DNA of 64,000 bases from Calothrix brevissima NIES-22 (GTDB lineage: Bacteria > Cyanobacteriota > Cyanobacteriia > Cyanobacteriales > Nostocaceae). Under the pieces are notes generated by a model that was not told the origin of the DNA, made no database searches, and worked only from the letters and a program-made list of their open reading frames with translations. The DNA is taken from positions 5,445,963-5,509,962 of the forward strand of contig NZ_AP018207.1 in the NCBI RefSeq assembly GCF_002367995.1, written 5' to 3'. A program made the translations under genes and the position numbers. Within the stretch, counting starts at the first letter, position 1; each line of letters begins with the position of its first letter. Of the stretch, positions 25,444 through 33,323 are shown piece by piece.

Positions 25444-26412
25444 ATGACCTATTTAGAAACAGCAGCAGAATTTTATCGTGAAGTTGCACAAACACCACAA
25501 GTGGGACTTTGTTGTGTCCAAAGTACACCTCTGCAACTACCAGGACTAAAAATGCCCTTGGCGATGCAAGAAATGAACTATGGTTGTGGTACTACTGTTC
25601 ACCCAACTGAACTAGCTAATCAACCTACCGTCTTGTATGTTGGCGTGGGTGGTGGGTTAGAAGCCTTACAATTTGCTTATTTTTCCCGTCGTCCTGGTGC
25701 TGTAATTGCCGTGGAACCAGTAGAAGCCATGCGCGAAGCAGCTACACGCAATTTAGAAATCGCCGCTCAAGAAAATCCTTGGTTTGATCCCAGTTTTGTC
25801 CAAATTTACGCAGGTGACGCTTTTAATTTACCCGTTGCTGATGCGGCTGTAGATGTTGTAGCACAAAACTGTCTTTTTAACATCTTTGAACCAGAAGATT
25901 TAACCCGCGCCTTAAAAGAAGCATATCGCGTTTTAAAACCAGGCGGACGTTTACAAATGAGCGATCCCATCGCTACTCGTGCCATACCTGCACATCTACA
26001 ACAAGATGAACGCCTCAGAGCCATGTGCTTATCTGGCGCACTAACATATCAAGATTATACACAATTGATTGTTAATGCTGGTTTTGGGCAAGTAGAAATT
26101 CGTGCCCGCCGTCCTTACCGATTACTAGATACTTTAACTTATAACCTAGAAGAAAATTTACTCTTAGAAAGTCTAGATTCTGTATCTTTTAAAGTTGCCA
26201 TACCCGCAGATGGAGCCTGTATTTTTACTGGTAAAACTGCAATTTATGCAGGTACAGAATCTTTATTTGATGACGGAGCAGGACATTTATTGCAGCGTGG
26301 TATTCCCGCAGCCGTGTGCGATAAAACTGCCGCTAAACTTGCAGCTTTAAAGCCAACAGAAATCATAGTTACTGATTCCACATGGCATTATGACGGTGGT
26401 GGTTGCTGCTAA
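25444..26412 (+). CDS. arsM: Arsenite methyltransferase of arsenosugar synthesis
   Basis: This 322-residue SAM methyltransferase should methylate arsenite to dimethylarsenical for arsenosugar synthesis. The SAM site is TVLYVGVGGGLEAL at about 60-73. The arsenic-binding Cys include Cys24 and Cys25 (GLCCVQS) and Cys48 (YGCGTT); a GGGCC end is characteristic of the ArsM branch paired with ArsS. Motif VLKPGGRLQMSDP is the usual post-motif of methyltransferases. It is followed, after one dispersed repeat, by arsS in the same direction. No ArsR repressor is seen nearby. Confidence 0.92.
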   Translation: MTYLETAAEFYREVAQTPQVGLCCVQSTPLQLPGLKMPLAMQEMNYGCGTTVHPTELANQPTVLYVGVGGGLEALQFAYFSRRPGAVIAVEPVEAMREAATRNLEIAAQENPWFDPSFVQIYAGDAFNLPVADAAVDVVAQNCLFNIFEPEDLTRALKEAYRVLKPGGRLQMSDPIATRAIPAHLQQDERLRAMCLSGALTYQDYTQLIVNAGFGQVEIRARRPYRLLDTLTYNLEENLLLESLDSVSFKVAIPADGACIFTGKTAIYAGTESLFDDGAGHLLQRGIPAAVCDKTAAKLAALKPTEIIVTDSTWHYDGGGCC

Positions 26413-26477
26413 CTTTTAACCACAAATTACTATCAATATTAGTAGTGGAATGACACAAATAAAATAGTGCATTAGAT

Positions 26478-26573
26478 GTAGGTTGGGTTGAGGCTTTGCG
26501 AAACCCAACATGAATTTCATAAACTCAACATAGATGCTGGTGTTGGGTTGACTTAAGGAAACCCAACCTACAT
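26478..26573. repeat. Dispersed GTTGGGTT inverted repeat
   Basis: GTAGGTTGGGTTGAGG and AACCCAACCTACA bracket a middle with a second GTTGGGTT copy. It separates arsM from arsS and is one of at least five such palindromes in the window. Confidence 0.8.
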
Positions 26574-26646
26574 TTTTTTGCAACATTTTAGCCTTGCCAC
26601 GCCCCTACAAAGATTAAAAGTTAATCTTATCGGAGACAAAATAAAA

Positions 26647-27654
26647 ATGCAGACTCAATCCTTAAATTCATTAGATATAACAGTAACACCATTTCAACAA
26701 AAGCTCAGTCAGCCGTTAACTAAAACAACTATATCTGTATTACAAATTAATTTAGGTAAACGCTGTAACCTAGCCTGTACCCACTGTCATGTAGAAGCTA
26801 GTCCAAAACGCACAGAAGAATTATCTCCAGAAATTTGCGAACAATTAATTGAATTAATTTACAAATTTCCCGAAATTCAAATTGTTGATTTAACTGGTGG
26901 CGCGCCAGAAATGAATTTTGGCTTTAAGCCATTAGTAGCCGCCGCTAAAAAAACAGGTAAACAGGTAATTGTGCGTTCTAATTTGACTATTTATTTTGTC
27001 GATGGCTTTGGCGATTTACCAGAATACTGTGCAGAAAATAAATTAAGAATAGTAGCTTCCCTACCCTGTTACCTAGCAGATAATGTAGATAAAATGCGCG
27101 GTGCTGGTGTTTTTGATGATTCTATTAAAGCTTTGCAGTGGCTAAATCGTCTTGGCTATGGAAAAGAATCAGATTTAATTTTGGATTTAGTTTATAATCC
27201 CCAATTACCCAAAGCAGAAAAATTTTCTTTGGCTCCCGAACAGACAAACCTAGAGAAAGCTTATAAAATGTTCTTGCAAGAACATTTCGATATAGTATTT
27301 AACAACCTCTTCACCATCACCAATCTACCAGTTGGTAGAACAAAAATGTATTTAGAACGTCAAAAATTGTCCGCCAGCTATTTGCAGTTTTTAGCATCTA
27401 ACTTTAATGCTGGCACAGTTGAGCATTTAATGTGTCGTAATCAATTATCGGTTGATTATTTAGGTAACGTTTATGATTGCGACTTTAACCAAATGATGAA
27501 TTTACCAGCAAAAAGCCATAATGGTGAAACTTTGACAATTGCTAGCTTGTTAGAGGCTGGTAGTTTAGATTTGATTGATGAGATTCAAACCGCAGCCTAT
27601 TGCTATGGTTGTACGGCTGGTTGTGGTTCTAGTTGCGGTGGCGCTTTAGTTTAA
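26647..27654 (+). CDS. arsS: Arsenosugar biosynthesis radical SAM protein
   Basis: ArsS is a radical SAM enzyme that attaches a 5'-deoxyadenosyl group to the methylated arsenical made by ArsM. The [4Fe-4S] motif CNLACTHC uses Cys40, Cys44 and Cys47. The next conserved stretch is HVEASPKRTE. The GGAPEMN segment binds SAM. A Cys-rich end CYGCTAGCGSSCGGALV is typical of the family and probably binds an auxiliary cluster. I choose ATG 26647 because the upstream part of the frame runs through the dispersed repeat. Length 335 is normal. The pair arsM-arsS indicates arsenolipid or arsenosugar formation. Confidence 0.93.
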   Translation: MQTQSLNSLDITVTPFQQKLSQPLTKTTISVLQINLGKRCNLACTHCHVEASPKRTEELSPEICEQLIELIYKFPEIQIVDLTGGAPEMNFGFKPLVAAAKKTGKQVIVRSNLTIYFVDGFGDLPEYCAENKLRIVASLPCYLADNVDKMRGAGVFDDSIKALQWLNRLGYGKESDLILDLVYNPQLPKAEKFSLAPEQTNLEKAYKMFLQEHFDIVFNNLFTITNLPVGRTKMYLERQKLSASYLQFLASNFNAGTVEHLMCRNQLSVDYLGNVYDCDFNQMMNLPAKSHNGETLTIASLLEAGSLDLIDEIQTAAYCYGCTAGCGSSCGGALV

Positions 27655-28278: not shown

Positions 28279-28653
28279 ATGATGATGATGATGATGAATG
28301 AATCCATGACAACGGAAATGCAAACCTGCATGGACGCTTGCATGGAATGTCACAAGATGTGTATGGAAACCATGACTCACTGCATGTCTATGTCTCAAGG
28401 CAAGCAGATGGACATGAAAATGATGAGCATGATGAGCATGATGCGCGACTGCGCGGAAATGTGCATGATGTGCATGAACATGATGATGAGTGGTTCCGAA
28501 TTCATGGGACGTACTTGTATGCTATGTGCAGAAATGTGCGATCGCTGTGCAATGGCTTGTGACGAAATGGGCGGTGATAAAATGATGGAATGTGCCGCAG
28601 CTTGCCGCAAATGTGCAGAAGCTTGCCGGATGATGCAAATGATGCCTGCTTAA
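28279..28653 (+). CDS. Cys/Met-rich four-helix copper-binding protein
   Basis: The 124-residue protein is about one quarter Met and has 19 Cys. Patterns such as CMDACMECHKMC, CAEMCMMC, CMLCAEMCDRCAMAC and CAAACRKCAEAC place Cys along helix faces, as in the DUF326/Csp copper-storage family. Csp proteins line a four-helix bundle with Cys thiolates to hold Cu(I). The Met excess, including six Met at the start and KMMSMMSMM, exceeds that of known Csp proteins and could add Cu(I) sites. AGGAGG lies before a row of ATG codons; the first, 28279, is taken. No signal peptide, so cytosolic. Confidence 0.85.
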   Translation: MMMMMMNESMTTEMQTCMDACMECHKMCMETMTHCMSMSQGKQMDMKMMSMMSMMRDCAEMCMMCMNMMMSGSEFMGRTCMLCAEMCDRCAMACDEMGGDKMMECAAACRKCAEACRMMQMMPA

Positions 28654-28692: not shown

Positions 28693-28725
28693 CAAGCGCT
28701 CAGGCTCAACAAGTCTGGGCGCTTG
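28693..28725 (+). terminator. Hairpin after the copper-binding gene
   Basis: CAAGCGCTCAG pairs with CTGGGCGCTTG across an 11-nt loop. There is no T-run, so it may slow or end transcription, or protect the 3' end of the mRNA. The next gene starts 15 bp later. Confidence 0.5.
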
Positions 28726-28740
28726 AAGTATATTTATAGG

Positions 28741-29541
28741 ATGAAGCACCTTAAATCTCGTTCTCAAGATTTGCGGAGTTTATTTGAGAACAACATCACG
28801 ATTGAATACGTAGCAGAACCCCTCAAAGCAGTGTCGGCAGAAGCTGAGGTAACAGAGGTGCTGCAATGGATGCAAGCACGCGACTTTGATGTGGTTGGTG
28901 TTGAGTCAGGTGATACCATCACTGGCTATGTAGAACGCGCCAACTTACACAAAGCAACATCGGGAAAAGTATGCAGCGATTATCAGCGCATATTTCATCC
29001 CAGAGAACTCATCGCTATTTCCACTCCACTGATGAAACTGCTACCAATTCTGCAACAAACTCCCCGATTATTTGTGCTGGATTGCAATCAAGTAACGGGA
29101 ATTGTTACCTGTGGCGATTTGCAAAAAGCACCTGCGAGAATGCTGTTATTTGGCTTAGTCACGCTGTTAGAAATGAATTTGCTGCGACTGGTGCGGCTTT
29201 ATTATGTAGATAATAGTTGGCAGAAAGTTTTAAAACCAGAACGTTTACAAGTCGCACAAAGATTGTGGCGCGAAAGCCAAGAAAGAAATGAAGCCACAGA
29301 TTTATTAGATTATCTGCAATTTTGCGATAAGCGCGAGTTAGTTTTAAATCAACCAGAATTGCTAGAACAACTAGGATTAAAATCCAAGCGATTTGGCGAA
29401 AGGTTTTTGAAATCAGCCGAACAGCTACGCAACCGATTAGCACATGCACAAAACTTAGTTAGCGGCTCCTCTTGGACAGATTTAATTTCTTTAGCCGAAG
29501 CGATGGAAAAATTATTGATTTTGTGTGAGGAAATCGAGTGA
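28741..29541 (+). CDS. CBS-domain protein with HEPN-like C-terminal motif
   Basis: The 266-residue protein starts at ATG 28741; a TTG at 28723 is less likely. Its N-terminal ~120 residues form a CBS pair (VSAEAEVTEVLQWMQARDFDVVGV, then LFVLDCNQVTGIVTCGDL), an adenine-nucleotide sensing module. The C-terminal half is helical and ends with LRNRLAHAQNLV, where R-x4-H matches the active-site motif of HEPN ribonucleases. The combination suggests a nucleotide-controlled RNase or a related non-catalytic helper. It sits downstream of the copper-binding gene in the same direction. Function is not established, and the HEPN assignment rests only on the motif and helical context. Confidence 0.65.
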   Translation: MKHLKSRSQDLRSLFENNITIEYVAEPLKAVSAEAEVTEVLQWMQARDFDVVGVESGDTITGYVERANLHKATSGKVCSDYQRIFHPRELIAISTPLMKLLPILQQTPRLFVLDCNQVTGIVTCGDLQKAPARMLLFGLVTLLEMNLLRLVRLYYVDNSWQKVLKPERLQVAQRLWRESQERNEATDLLDYLQFCDKRELVLNQPELLEQLGLKSKRFGERFLKSAEQLRNRLAHAQNLVSGSSWTDLISLAEAMEKLLILCEEIE

Positions 29542-30693: not shown

Positions 30694-31437
30694 ATGTTGA
30701 CTTTCCCTGTTTATATCGGGATAGGTTCGTTGCGAATTCATCCACATATTTTATTTGAATCTTTAGCTTATGCTACTGCTTTTCGTTTATTAATAAAGCG
30801 TGTGCGTAAAGATTCAATTACACCTAGTCAACGTACTTCTGTAATTGTTGGGGGGATGATAGGTGCTTTAATTGGTGCCAAAATGTTGGTGTGGCTGCAA
30901 CATATTGATTTAATTTGGCAAAATCAACAGCAATTACTTTTACTCTTACTCCAAGGTAAAACAGTCGTCGGCGCACTTTTGGGGGGATTAATTGGCGTAG
31001 AAATTACCAAAAAAATTATTGGAATTCATCAATCTACAGGCGATGTATTTGTATTTCCCTTAATTTTGGGTACAGCCATCGGGAGAATTGGCTGCTTTCT
31101 CACCGGTTTGAGCGATCGCACTTACGGAATCGCCACCACATTACCTTGGGGTGTAGATTTTGGCGATGGTGTTCCCCGACATCCCACACAATTGTATGAA
31201 ATCTTATTTTTATTATTGTTAATTATATTCTTACGCTGGCGCAGCCGGTTTCAATATGAAAATGGCGAATTATTTAAATTTTATTTAATTTCTTATTTTG
31301 CGTTCCGTTTCTTGATAGATTTCATTAAACCTGATTTTCACCCATTTTTGGGATTGAGTGCTATTCAAATTGCCTGCCTATTAACAATCCTCTACTATCG
31401 CCGCAGTATTTTACAAATGTTTCAATTCAATAAATAA
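30694..31437 (+). CDS. Lgt-like membrane transferase lacking key residues
   Basis: This 247-residue, seven-helix membrane protein belongs to the prolipoprotein diacylglyceryl transferase family. It keeps the RHPTQLYE signature (~residues 165-172) and the GRIG part of the GRxGNFxN signature. It deviates at catalytic positions: GRIGNFING is GRIGCFLTG, so the Asn is Cys. The SFHGGLIGV loop, whose His is essential in true Lgt, reads ALLGGLIGV, with Leu in place of His. It therefore probably does not make lipoproteins, but may handle a phosphatidylglycerol-type substrate. The radical SAM gene 110 bp downstream and a small membrane protein form a unit with it. Confidence 0.8.
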   Translation: MLTFPVYIGIGSLRIHPHILFESLAYATAFRLLIKRVRKDSITPSQRTSVIVGGMIGALIGAKMLVWLQHIDLIWQNQQQLLLLLLQGKTVVGALLGGLIGVEITKKIIGIHQSTGDVFVFPLILGTAIGRIGCFLTGLSDRTYGIATTLPWGVDFGDGVPRHPTQLYEILFLLLLIIFLRWRSRFQYENGELFKFYLISYFAFRFLIDFIKPDFHPFLGLSAIQIACLLTILYYRRSILQMFQFNK

Positions 31438-31547
31438 TTTACATAATTTTCCATGATTTTCAGCTAGACATTGCTCACCCTACAAAACTTCTTCATCATT
31501 CCCTTCCTTCTGCCTTCTGCCCTCTGCCCTCTGCCTTATTTAATACC

Positions 31548-32966
31548 ATGCCTACCCGCAATTATTTATTTTACGCCTTAACTAATAGTGTTTGCTCAAA
31601 ATGTTTAGTTAAGGTAGAAGCGAAAATCATTTTTCAAGATGATTGTGTTTATTTAGTTAAACATTGCCCTACTCACGGAAAAGAAGAAGTTTTAATTGCT
31701 GATGATATTGAATATTATAAACAATCTCTAGAATTTATTAAACCAGGGGATATGCCCCTCAAGTTTAATACGCCAATTAAATATGGTTGTCCTTATGATT
31801 GTGGACTTTGCCCCGATCACGAACAGCATAGTTGTTTAACATTAATTGAAGTCACAGATAAATGCAATCTTTCCTGCCCAATTTGTTACGCTGATTCTGG
31901 CGCAGAAGAAATTTCCCAATTATCTCAGCAACCAAGACTGCATCGCAGTTTAGCACAAATTGAAAGTATGATTGATGCGGTAGTTGCTAATGAAGGCGAG
32001 CCGCAAATAGTACAACTCAGTGGTGGCGAACCTACGATTCATCCTGAGTTTTTTCAAATCTTGGATATTATCAAAACCAAGCCGATTAAGCATTTAATGA
32101 TCAATACCAATGGCGTGATGATCGCTAAGGATAAATCATTTTGCGATCGCTTGAGTCAATACATGCCCGGAATTGAGATATATTTACAATTTGATAGCTT
32201 TGAAGCCGCCGCTTTAAAAGAGTTACGCGGTGCAGATTTACGCCATATCAGAGAACAAGCAATAGCTAATCTCAATGAATATAATATTTCGACTACATTA
32301 GTTGTCACCCTCAAGAAAGGTTTAAATGACAGCGAAATCGGTAAAATCATCGAATATGCTTTACAGCAAAAATGCATCCGGGGTGTAACTTTTCAACCGA
32401 TACAAGCAGCCGGAAGATTAGCAGGATTTAACCCCAAACGAGACAGGTACACCTTAACAGAAGTTCGTCGCTCAATTTTAGAACAAAGTCCTTATTTTAA
32501 ACCGGAAGATATTCTTCCTGTTCCCTGTCATCCTGATTGCTTGGCGATGGCTTACGCCTTGAAATTAAATGGTAAAGTTATCCCGCTAACTGGGTTAATT
32601 AATCCAGATGTGTTTGTAAAAATTATGCCTAATAGCGTACTTTATGAACAAAATGAAGAATTAAAACAGCAAATTTTTCAACTATTTTCTACCAGCCATT
32701 CGCCTAATTCTGCTGCTTTATCACTCAAGCAGCTTTTATGTTGTTTACCCATGATAGCTGTACCAGAAGGTATTAATTACTCAAATGTATTTCGAGTAAT
32801 GATAGTTCAATTTCTCGACCCTTTTAACTTTGATGTTCGCTCAGTCAAGCGCTCTTGTATTCATATTGTACATCCAGATGGTAGGATAATTCCATTTGAT
32901 ACATTCAATATGTTTTATCGTGCAGGAAGTGCTGGATATCAGTTGGTTAATAACCGTACTGATTGA
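31548..32966 (+). CDS. Radical SAM protein, MJ0619/tetraether-synthase-like
   Basis: The 472-residue enzyme has the radical SAM cluster CNLSCPIC (Cys106, 110, 113). Flanking features match MJ0619/Tes-type proteins, which join lipid tails at sp3 carbons. There is a rubredoxin-like N-terminus (CSKC at 16-19, CPTHG at 40-44), a second cluster site CPYDCGLC (81-88), VPCHPDC near residue 327, and a C-terminal FLDPFNFDVRSVKRSCIHIV followed by HPDGRIIPF. In MJ0619-like proteins I recall PFCxYN after that; here it is PFDTFN, so one Cys is missing. No signal peptide. With the Lgt-like neighbour it probably modifies membrane lipids or a lipidated product. Substrate unknown. Confidence 0.8.
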   Translation: MPTRNYLFYALTNSVCSKCLVKVEAKIIFQDDCVYLVKHCPTHGKEEVLIADDIEYYKQSLEFIKPGDMPLKFNTPIKYGCPYDCGLCPDHEQHSCLTLIEVTDKCNLSCPICYADSGAEEISQLSQQPRLHRSLAQIESMIDAVVANEGEPQIVQLSGGEPTIHPEFFQILDIIKTKPIKHLMINTNGVMIAKDKSFCDRLSQYMPGIEIYLQFDSFEAAALKELRGADLRHIREQAIANLNEYNISTTLVVTLKKGLNDSEIGKIIEYALQQKCIRGVTFQPIQAAGRLAGFNPKRDRYTLTEVRRSILEQSPYFKPEDILPVPCHPDCLAMAYALKLNGKVIPLTGLINPDVFVKIMPNSVLYEQNEELKQQIFQLFSTSHSPNSAALSLKQLLCCLPMIAVPEGINYSNVFRVMIVQFLDPFNFDVRSVKRSCIHIVHPDGRIIPFDTFNMFYRAGSAGYQLVNNRTD

Positions 32967-33002
32967 ATTTGATCGAACGGTGTCATCTATAGGGTTAAAT
33001 TA

Positions 33003-33323
33003 ATGTCTCAAAGAAATGAAATTTTCCAAATTTTATTAGGATTATTTCTGATAGTTGGTTTACATTCATTAGCAATACTGATCATATTTGGCTTGGGTTG
33101 GCTTTCTGTGCAGATATTTGGTTCTAATAATTATTACTATTTAGGTATATGGTTAGTAGGCGCTTGGGGATTTTTTATCTGGCAAATGTTATATGTAATT
33201 CCCGTTTGTATTTGGCTGAGAAGACAACAGCGCGTAGCAATGATGAAAGGGGTAATTATTGGTGCAGTAATTACGGCTTTATTAAATGGTAGTTGTTTTT
33301 TATTAATATTTACTAATCGTTAA
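33003..33323 (+). CDS. Small membrane protein of the Lgt-like/radical SAM unit
   Basis: The 106-residue protein has three hydrophobic segments (about 10-35, 47-70, 82-104), and the middle part GSNNYYYLGIWLVGAWGFFIW is rich in aromatic residues. A short polar loop, WLRRQQRVAMMK, separates the last two. No catalytic motif is seen. It begins 36 bp after the radical SAM stop, in the same direction, so it likely belongs to that transcript. It may be a membrane scaffold for the modified lipid. I do not recognise a family. Confidence 0.7.
   Translation: MSQRNEIFQILLGLFLIVGLHSLAILIIFGLGWLSVQIFGSNNYYYLGIWLVGAWGFFIWQMLYVIPVCIWLRRQQRVAMMKGVIIGAVITALLNGSCFLLIFTNR

Follow-up and report, generated by a model that had tools for sequence, protein, structure and literature searches.

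A linked Lgt-like protein, radical SAM enzyme and small membrane protein in Calothrix brevissima NIES-22 and other bacteria, a possible membrane-lipid or lipoprotein modification unit

What might be made by a second Lgt-family protein encoded beside a radical S-adenosylmethionine (SAM) enzyme is the question raised by a locus of Calothrix brevissima NIES-22. The window analysed here is a stretch of 64,000 nucleotides (nt) of contig NZ_AP018207.1 (positions 5,445,963 to 5,509,962), and positions 30694-33323 of its + strand are filled by three open reading frames (ORFs), designated P0001, P0002 and P0003, separated by gaps of 110 nt and 36 nt, respectively. A sequence-only reading of this DNA had described three close co-directional genes, and this layout is confirmed as follows.

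30694..31437, + strand: P0001, Lgt-like paralogue of 247 amino acids (ORF with Pfam LGT match)
31548..32966, + strand: P0002, radical SAM enzyme of the GDGT-MAS/Tes/TrsS superfamily, in a separate clade, 472 amino acids
33003..33323, + strand: P0003, small membrane protein, third part of the unit, 106 amino acids

P0001 matches Pfam LGT at 114.1 bits (cut-off 24.9) and falls below the equivalog cut-off of TIGR00544 (58.4 vs 118.9 bits). A second, canonical Lgt is encoded in the same genome (276.6 bits), and P0001 is thus extra to the housekeeping lgt product. P0002 carries Pfam Radical_SAM and zinc ribbon (PF23545) matches, and its scores with the NCBIfam models TrsS (NF045646, 308.6 vs cut-off 490) and Tes (NF045702, 274.8 vs 450) are both insufficient. 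P0003 has no Pfam or NCBIfam match, and among the NCBIfam models listed (June 2026; for P0002, the best 25 of 59 models) none reached its cut-off with any of the three proteins. The short motifs picked out earlier (CNLSCPIC, CPYDCGLC, VPCHPDC, PDGRIIPF, ALLGGLIGV and GRIGCFLTG) are all present.

As judged from sequence and gene order, the Lgt-like and radical SAM genes are inherited together and almost always sit side by side. The locus set consists of the best 80 of at least 573 confirmed P0002 relatives, spread over cyanobacteria, Bacillota, Planctomycetota, Verrucomicrobia-type bacteria, Bacteroidetes and a few other bacteria. An Lgt-like gene is present in the same stretch as the radical SAM gene in 74 of the 80, lying upstream on the same strand in 71 and downstream in 3; 66 of the 71 upstream genes are within 100 nt of the radical SAM gene, and 22 overlap it. 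Six loci have no Lgt-like gene in the stretch. The genomes of three of them (L008, L009 and L014) hold a 75-77% copy elsewhere, that of L014 being a fragment at a contig end; in the other three (L022, L024 and L070) the radical SAM gene lies no more than 88 nt from a contig end, and a close Lgt-like copy was not found in the genome. The radical SAM gene of a further locus, L021, has an in-frame TAG at codon 152 and is otherwise intact, which points to either a sequencing error or a decaying copy.

The phylum of the window was sampled with 146 genomes, that of the window included, in which radical SAM genes were called at E <= 1e-30 and close Lgt-like genes at >=44% identity. The former were present in 7 genomes and the latter in 6, all six nested within the seven, so that the linkage in other cyanobacteria, set beforehand as a check, holds. 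In five of the six the two genes are neighbours on one contig (~550 nt apart in G032), and in G030 the Lgt-like gene is broken across two contigs, its last part adjoining the radical SAM gene ~100 nt from the contig end. Among 200 genomes of the class Bacilli, to which Paenibacillus sp. HGH0039 belongs (this centre genome included), the radical SAM gene was found in 14 and the Lgt-like gene in the identical 14, side by side. The cyanobacterial and Bacilli samples each contain one centre genome known beforehand to carry the unit. A third sample, 119 genomes of the phylum of G164 including G164 itself, gave 26 radical SAM places in 22 genomes. Eight of these belong to the P0002 clade (centre included), seven having an Lgt-like gene inside flanks of ~1.5 kb and the eighth at 2.5 kb, and none of the 18 other homologues has one inside the same flanks.

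The protein distances of the two families are strongly correlated (r 0.90 by Mantel test, n=70; the highest value in 1000 permutations was 0.19), a correlation that in part reflects shared descent as the statistic ignores species kinship. Chance is excluded as the source of the gene arrangement because it recurs in several phyla. Beyond the three parts, no family was found at a fixed place beside the unit in the 80 loci: the next gene clusters, present in 17, 16 and 12 loci, are at scattered places or antisense, and the ten largest short-ORF clusters are frames overlapping P0003, the tail proteins described below, or lineage-specific. The view that this is a real unit, with both enzymes drawn from lipid-handling superfamilies, is supported.

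The AlphaFold model of P0001 has a mean predicted local distance difference test score (pLDDT) of 90.1, and its single PDB match at E <= 0.001 is E. coli Lgt (5azb; E 1.6e-7, TM-score 0.63 by query). In an alignment of 35 partner-clade rows (two identical, and two being the unlinked copies of L008 and L009) with 11 canonical rows, the following positions stand out.

P0001 residues, with those of E. coli Lgt in brackets: H18 (Y26), V92 (H103), R131 (R143), C134 (N146), Y201 (Y235), R205 (R239), and K106, which is new
31093..31095, + strand: codon of Cys134 (Cys in 35/35 partner-clade rows; Asn in 9/11 and Cys in 2/11 canonical rows)

Residues Y26, H103 and N146 are listed as essential in Lgt in the available part of PMC13251419, and R143, R239, Y235 and G154 are essential residues of Lgt as well. 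The equivalents of these last four (R131, Y201, R205, and G145 for G154) are kept in 35/35 partner-clade rows and, together with Q225, are common to the partner clade and nearly all of the canonical rows. The first three are absent from P0001: the Y26 place is His in 30/35 partner-clade rows (2 Gly, 3 gaps), and that of H103 is V, L, A, M or T, as compared with H (7), Y (3) or Q (1) in canonical rows. Lys106 and Lys/Arg89 are each found in 35/35 partner-clade rows and in 0/11 canonical rows, and the partner-clade proteins form a branch of the tree separate from canonical Lgt. Of the two losses claimed earlier, replacement of the essential Asn by Cys is upheld by C134 at the N146 place; as to the essential His, none occurs at either place, but H103 aligns to Val92 and not to the Leu of ALLGGLIGV that had been named.

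Lgt activity could not be ruled out on the strength of these two losses, because some true Lgt have Y, W or F in place of H103 and a few distant ones have Cys in place of Asn146 (PMC13251419, in part). In M. smegmatis MSMEG_5408, according to that paper, Y26 is replaced by His and N146 by Cys. R143 and R239 place the phosphate of phosphatidylglycerol, according to the same portion of that paper, and both are given as essential in the part of PMC4728403 at hand. Since the Arg pair is conserved and the H103 and N146 places are changed, phosphatidylglycerol binding is likely kept in P0001 and the reactive pocket changed. The short head domain was considered as proof against lipoprotein substrates and dropped, as the head of the canonical Lgt L109 is equally short (31 vs 32 residues) and small heads occur in true Lgt (PMC13251419, in part). 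Two such Lgt-like genes are annotated 'prolipoprotein diacylglyceryl transferase family protein'.

The model of P0002 (pLDDT 81.7, with low confidence for the N-terminal cluster region 66-95) has its best fold match in GDGT-MAS (7tol, 7tom; E 7.8e-35, TM-score 0.78 by query). Four sites can be assigned.

31593..31676, + strand: rubredoxin/zinc-ribbon-like site, C16, C19, C40 and H43
31788..31820, + strand: N-terminal auxiliary cluster site (CPYDCGLC), C81, C85, C88 and H91
31863..31886, + strand: radical SAM cluster CX3CX2C (CNLSCPIC), C106, C110 and C113
32526..32900, + strand: C-terminal domain with C327, C398, C399 and C437, and with S436 and D451 at Cys places of other clades

The first three sites are present in 31/31 P0002-clade rows, and the N-terminal cluster residues are equivalent to C73/C77/C80/His of GDGT-MAS (PMC9433317, in part). 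The C-terminal site differs in an alignment of these 31 rows with 25 rows from outside the clade, 24 of which are covered at the C-terminus. The latter have Cys at 331, 436 and 451 in 24/24 rows, and the P0002 clade has it in 20/31, 0/31 and 0/31, respectively; Cys is found in 30/31 rows at 327 and in 31/31 at each of 398, 399 and 437 (C327 and C331 are the cysteines of VPCHPDC). Judged by conservation, positions 331, 436 and 451 would provide the C-terminal cluster ligands of Tes-type enzymes, and the site thus appears changed in the P0002 clade by loss of two of the three. GDGT-MAS has been proposed to store the first substrate radical as a C-S bond on its C-terminal cluster (PMC9433317, portion available). 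If the two putative ligands are indeed gone, P0002 must therefore store the radical differently or run another reaction.

In a quick tree made without bootstrap, the P0002 clade has a Shimodaira-Hasegawa-like approximate likelihood-ratio test (SH-aLRT) value of 99, and M. jannaschii Tes and nine others fall in another clade (SH-aLRT 98). The description 'Tes-like' is too narrow, given that TrsS outscores Tes, the clade stands apart, and two putative C-terminal cluster ligands are gone. In keeping with the earlier reading, the unit fails the tests for an archaeal tetraether synthase; it also fails those for an ordinary Lgt. The places of Tes Met439 and Tyr459 are Val and Ile in P0002 (in the clade, Met in 18/31 and Ile in 31/31 rows). 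Their use as proof against Tes chemistry was dropped: the GDGT-MAS variants M439A and Y459F/L stay active (PMC9433317, in part), and Met occupies the Met439 place in 54/80 rows (those of the window and of 79 loci, without L021). In stretch L138, the TrsS-like radical SAM gene has an in-frame TGA, probably encoding selenocysteine, at 2413-2415, the place of P0002 Cys327, and Cys327 is perhaps reactive on this hint.

A small membrane protein with a predicted last helix ending in Cys is usually encoded in the same cluster. For P0003 this part is as follows.

33231..33320, + strand: C-terminal tail of P0003, with a basic run, a hydrophobic helix, small residues and Cys98 (33294-33296)

Relatives of P0003 were detected in 37/80 loci by direct tblastn and, at E <= 1e-3, in 60/80 by a profile iterated on the same 80 loci, 59 of them directly downstream. 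As judged by eye, 17 of the 20 loci with no clear P0003 hold another small membrane protein with Cys in the last helix. The proteins are of several types. In Paenibacillus and Saccharibacillus a B-box-like zinc finger is followed by one helix (Pfam B_box, 26.8 bits in L082, above the cut-off, and 22.4 in L080, below it) and the gene lies upstream of the Lgt-like gene, other types being downstream; L180 has a one-helix protein of 42 amino acids, and G018, G010 and G004 have a protein of 62-68 amino acids with a lipoprotein-like N-terminal signal ending SEAC or TQAC. The shared trait is a single Cys on the outer end of the helix, as judged by the positive-inside rule, mostly after small residues; the residues beyond it are hydrophobic and poorly conserved.

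A tail rule that omits the first two residues of the tail window was run at three thresholds and recognised a tail in 67/80 loci at all three, with 45, 27 and 17 of 7723 background ORFs matching; of the background ORFs whose end is hydrophobic, 14 of 427 matched at the strictest threshold. The same rule, with slightly wider neighbourhood limits, was applied to 17 further stretches (19 minus L190 and L193, which are on the same contigs as L042 and L038). A tail was found in 10/17, two of which (L155 and L198) had shown it in earlier profile searches, vs 0/748 other ORFs of all 19. By eye, the tail is also present in L189, and in L153 and L154 small membrane proteins that contain Cys are encoded between the two genes. 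In 20 genomes searched with a tail profile at E <= 1e-4, matches were confined to places beside the unit in 8 of 11 unit-bearing genomes, and 0/9 genomes without the unit had one; four of the eight had contributed their own tails to the profile, which leaves an independent score of 4/7. A sorting tag shared by many substrates is unsupported, as one tail copy, or two in tandem, lies beside the unit, and elsewhere in these genomes no match had an E value below 0.15.

As far as alignments and trees show, the Lgt-like proteins form a clade distinct from canonical Lgt, and the radical SAM proteins form one distinct from Tes. The chemistry and product of the unit, the order of steps and the substrate of the radical SAM enzyme may be inferred as follows. 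Tentatively, the three genes are read as a unit dedicated to the modification of membrane lipids or lipoproteins, which brings along an Lgt paralogue, a Cys-bearing client and a C-H-activating enzyme of its own. The Lgt-like protein would still bind phosphatidylglycerol via the conserved Arg pair and would move or present a diacylglyceryl group, which would most likely be accepted by the membrane Cys in the small partner protein. The radical SAM enzyme would take hydrogen from an unactivated C-H, most likely of a lipid tail and otherwise of the client, and bond the carbon to another carbon or to sulfur. Either a small protein bearing lipid or an altered phospholipid would result, and not an archaeal tetraether or a housekeeping lipoprotein; the unit could be self-contained, with SAM, phospholipid and the small membrane protein encoded in it as its substrates. 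The idea that no lipoprotein is involved is not borne out, since a membrane Cys with lipobox-like surroundings is a possible acceptor in P0003 and its analogues. There is a precedent in the diacylglycerylated ribosomally synthesised and post-translationally modified peptides (DAG-RiPPs), which combine peptide modification with diacylglyceryl transfer (PMC12636315, in part). A fully specified private lipoprotein pathway is speculative and rather unlikely in all its details: a diacylglyceryl transferase with a new Lys/Cys active site would use the last-helix Cys of the client as acceptor, and the radical SAM enzyme would join or functionalise the attached lipid tail by a C-C bond, or by a C-S bond with cluster sulfur as in the sulfur-containing intermediate of GDGT-MAS. 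Aerobic bacteria would then have a lipid that is anchored to a protein and may span the membrane or be a thioether.

Several points weigh against this modification of a client. To our knowledge, activity, product or structure is known for no member of either clade. The tail rule was composed after examples had been seen, and a first, stricter version recognised 33/80 loci vs 17/7734 background ORFs; some matches of the looser rule sit in frames that are perhaps not genes (L011, L068 and L076). The tail protein is missing or unrecognised in 13/80 loci, a few of which hold P0003 relatives missed by the rule, and in 7/17 further stretches. When 20 genomes were chosen for having no clear P0003, 17 had no relative anywhere at E <= 0.01, and P0003 as an obligatory part was rejected on this count. 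In the B-box type the residue preceding the Cys is Ile or Leu and not a lipobox residue, and G004 of the cyanobacterial sample has the radical SAM gene and the Cys protein, a close Lgt-like gene not having been found in it. The loss of His103 and Asn146 could also mean that transferase activity is lost and lipid binding only is left, and P0003 may be a plain subunit.

In a second reading, close to the one made from sequence alone, the two enzymes would remodel phospholipids, for example to cross-linked or tail-modified phosphatidylglycerol, with the small protein as a scaffold. The enzymes are the constant core and the small protein varies or is absent; no further family has a fixed place, and therefore the substrates may be universal ones such as SAM and phospholipid; and GDGT-MAS, the best fold match of P0002, binds phospholipids (PMC9433317, available part). 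The recurrent Cys tail beside the unit would be left unexplained, however, and the loss of two putative C-terminal cluster ligands also tells against such a lipid product. We know of no membrane-spanning lipid of the hosts. Remodelling of phospholipids alone is possible, if less probable, and is ranked second to modification of a client, which fits best. A RiPP-like system, in which the small membrane protein is a precursor modified by the radical SAM enzyme (e.g. by a thioether or a carbon-carbon bond in the tail) and lipidated or anchored by the Lgt-like protein, would account for the neighbouring small proteins, which share one end, differ in front and can be as short as the 42 amino acids of L180, and has the DAG-RiPP precedent. 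It is improbable, given the hydrophobic, poorly conserved residues past the Cys, the lack of a peptidase, transporter or other further family at a fixed place, and a P0002 fold match that is a lipid enzyme. Least probable is a TrsS-type enzyme in a non-lipid role, anchored to the membrane by a catalytically dead Lgt-like protein. TrsS does give the best NCBIfam score and the His103 and Asn146 equivalents are gone, but the invariance of R131, Y201 and R205 and of the new polar residues K106 and C134 is unexpected for a dead scaffold. Two TrsS-like genes (M. vanbaalenii and Halorarius) adjoin a methyltransferase gene (best model DVU_1556, below cut-off), with annotated Lgt absent from the stretch shown, and relatives of this methyltransferase occur in only 2/80 loci, more than 5 kb away, none adjoining the radical SAM gene.

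Both enzymes come from known superfamilies; their combination, their changed sites and the client are, as far as searched, undescribed. Linkage of an Lgt paralogue to a radical SAM enzyme was not recognised as the subject of any paper in the open-licence literature; PMC7641849 and PMC8939145 contain both terms, and the portions available of each make no such link. Bacterial Tes homologues number in the hundreds and are on record without a proven product (PMC8941075 and PMC11868695, both in part). The unit gives one bacterial clade of this superfamily a constant partner and a probable client, hence a testable product. It further shows an Lgt fold re-tooled as a second protein next to housekeeping Lgt, which matters for annotation. 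If the client is indeed modified, cyanobacteria, bacilli and members of other phyla would have a new way of making proteins that bear lipid.

Distant counterparts occur in actinobacterial plasmid-collection records (M. branderi, M. avium and Nonomuraea), where a radical SAM protein of 27-33% identity has an Lgt-family neighbour (31-34%); in two annotated records small membrane proteins sit between the two genes. These Lgt-like proteins, with planctomycete forms and L107, are on the side of the tree opposite canonical Lgt (SH-aLRT 97; quick tree, 47 rows), and the radical SAM proteins show no clear grouping with the P0002 clade. By hhalign, homology of these small proteins to P0003 is at most suggestive (probability 28%, score 24.5, as compared with 13.7 for the highest of 30 column shuffles). 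A second, distant Lgt-like/radical SAM pair lies at 3110-5510 of L180, from the genome of L076 (Phycisphaera sp.); its two genes are separated by a 241-amino-acid ferritin-like ORF (sub-threshold), and two ORFs for small membrane proteins lie upstream.

Upstream of the unit, the window includes the following genes.

25444-27654, + strand: arsM and arsS of the arsenosugar pathway, above the NCBIfam cut-offs (579/400 and 417.1/300 bits)
28279-28653, + strand: 124-amino-acid protein rich in Met and Cys
28723-29541, + strand: CBS-like protein, weakly matched by the model of anti-phage family NF053863 (28.8 bits vs cut-off 260)

A link with arsenic was rejected as incidental, since arsM and arsS are ~3 kb upstream and a close copy occurs in 0/80 loci; weak ArsS matches in the loci (E 7e-7 to 1e-5) fall on the radical SAM gene itself, and the sole distant ArsM match (30%, L063) is 6.5 kb away. 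The Met/Cys-rich protein is weakly similar to the copper-storage protein Csp1 (19.3 bits, cut-off 100), matches DUF326 (26.1 bits, cut-off 20.4) and has a 77% relative several kb upstream of the unit in L006. Relatives of the CBS-like protein (86-90%) are directly upstream of the unit in L003 and L006.

Compared with known systems, P0001 resembles Lgt (PF01790; E. coli 5azb) in its fold and in the R143, R239, Y235 and G154 equivalents, and its clade differs from canonical Lgt at the H103, N146 and Y26 places and in having Lys106 and Lys/Arg89. P0002 is like Tes/GDGT-MAS (MJ0619; 7tol, 7tom) in fold and in the rubredoxin, N-terminal and SAM cluster sites, whereas its clade is without Cys436 and Cys451, has kept Cys331 in part, has gained C398/C399, and has Ile at the Tyr459 place. 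Likeness to TrsS (NF045646) extends to the best NCBIfam score and to the alignment of Cys327 with the in-frame TGA, possibly selenocysteine, of L138; the ligand set of the P0002 clade differs from that of TrsS-like proteins. In DAG-RiPPs, too, a small peptide is modified by a metalloenzyme and diacylglycerylated at Cys, but these depend on the general lipoprotein pathway and on an enzyme of the MNIO type (PMC12636315, in part), in contrast to the private Lgt paralogue and radical SAM enzyme encoded here. As described in the part of PMC13274423 available, Mss is a proposed bacterial membrane-spanning lipid synthase, and the unit is likened to it by description, as alkyl-chain coupling in bacteria is proposed for Mss; the screen reported there covers Mss and Ger, not the Lgt-like/radical SAM unit.

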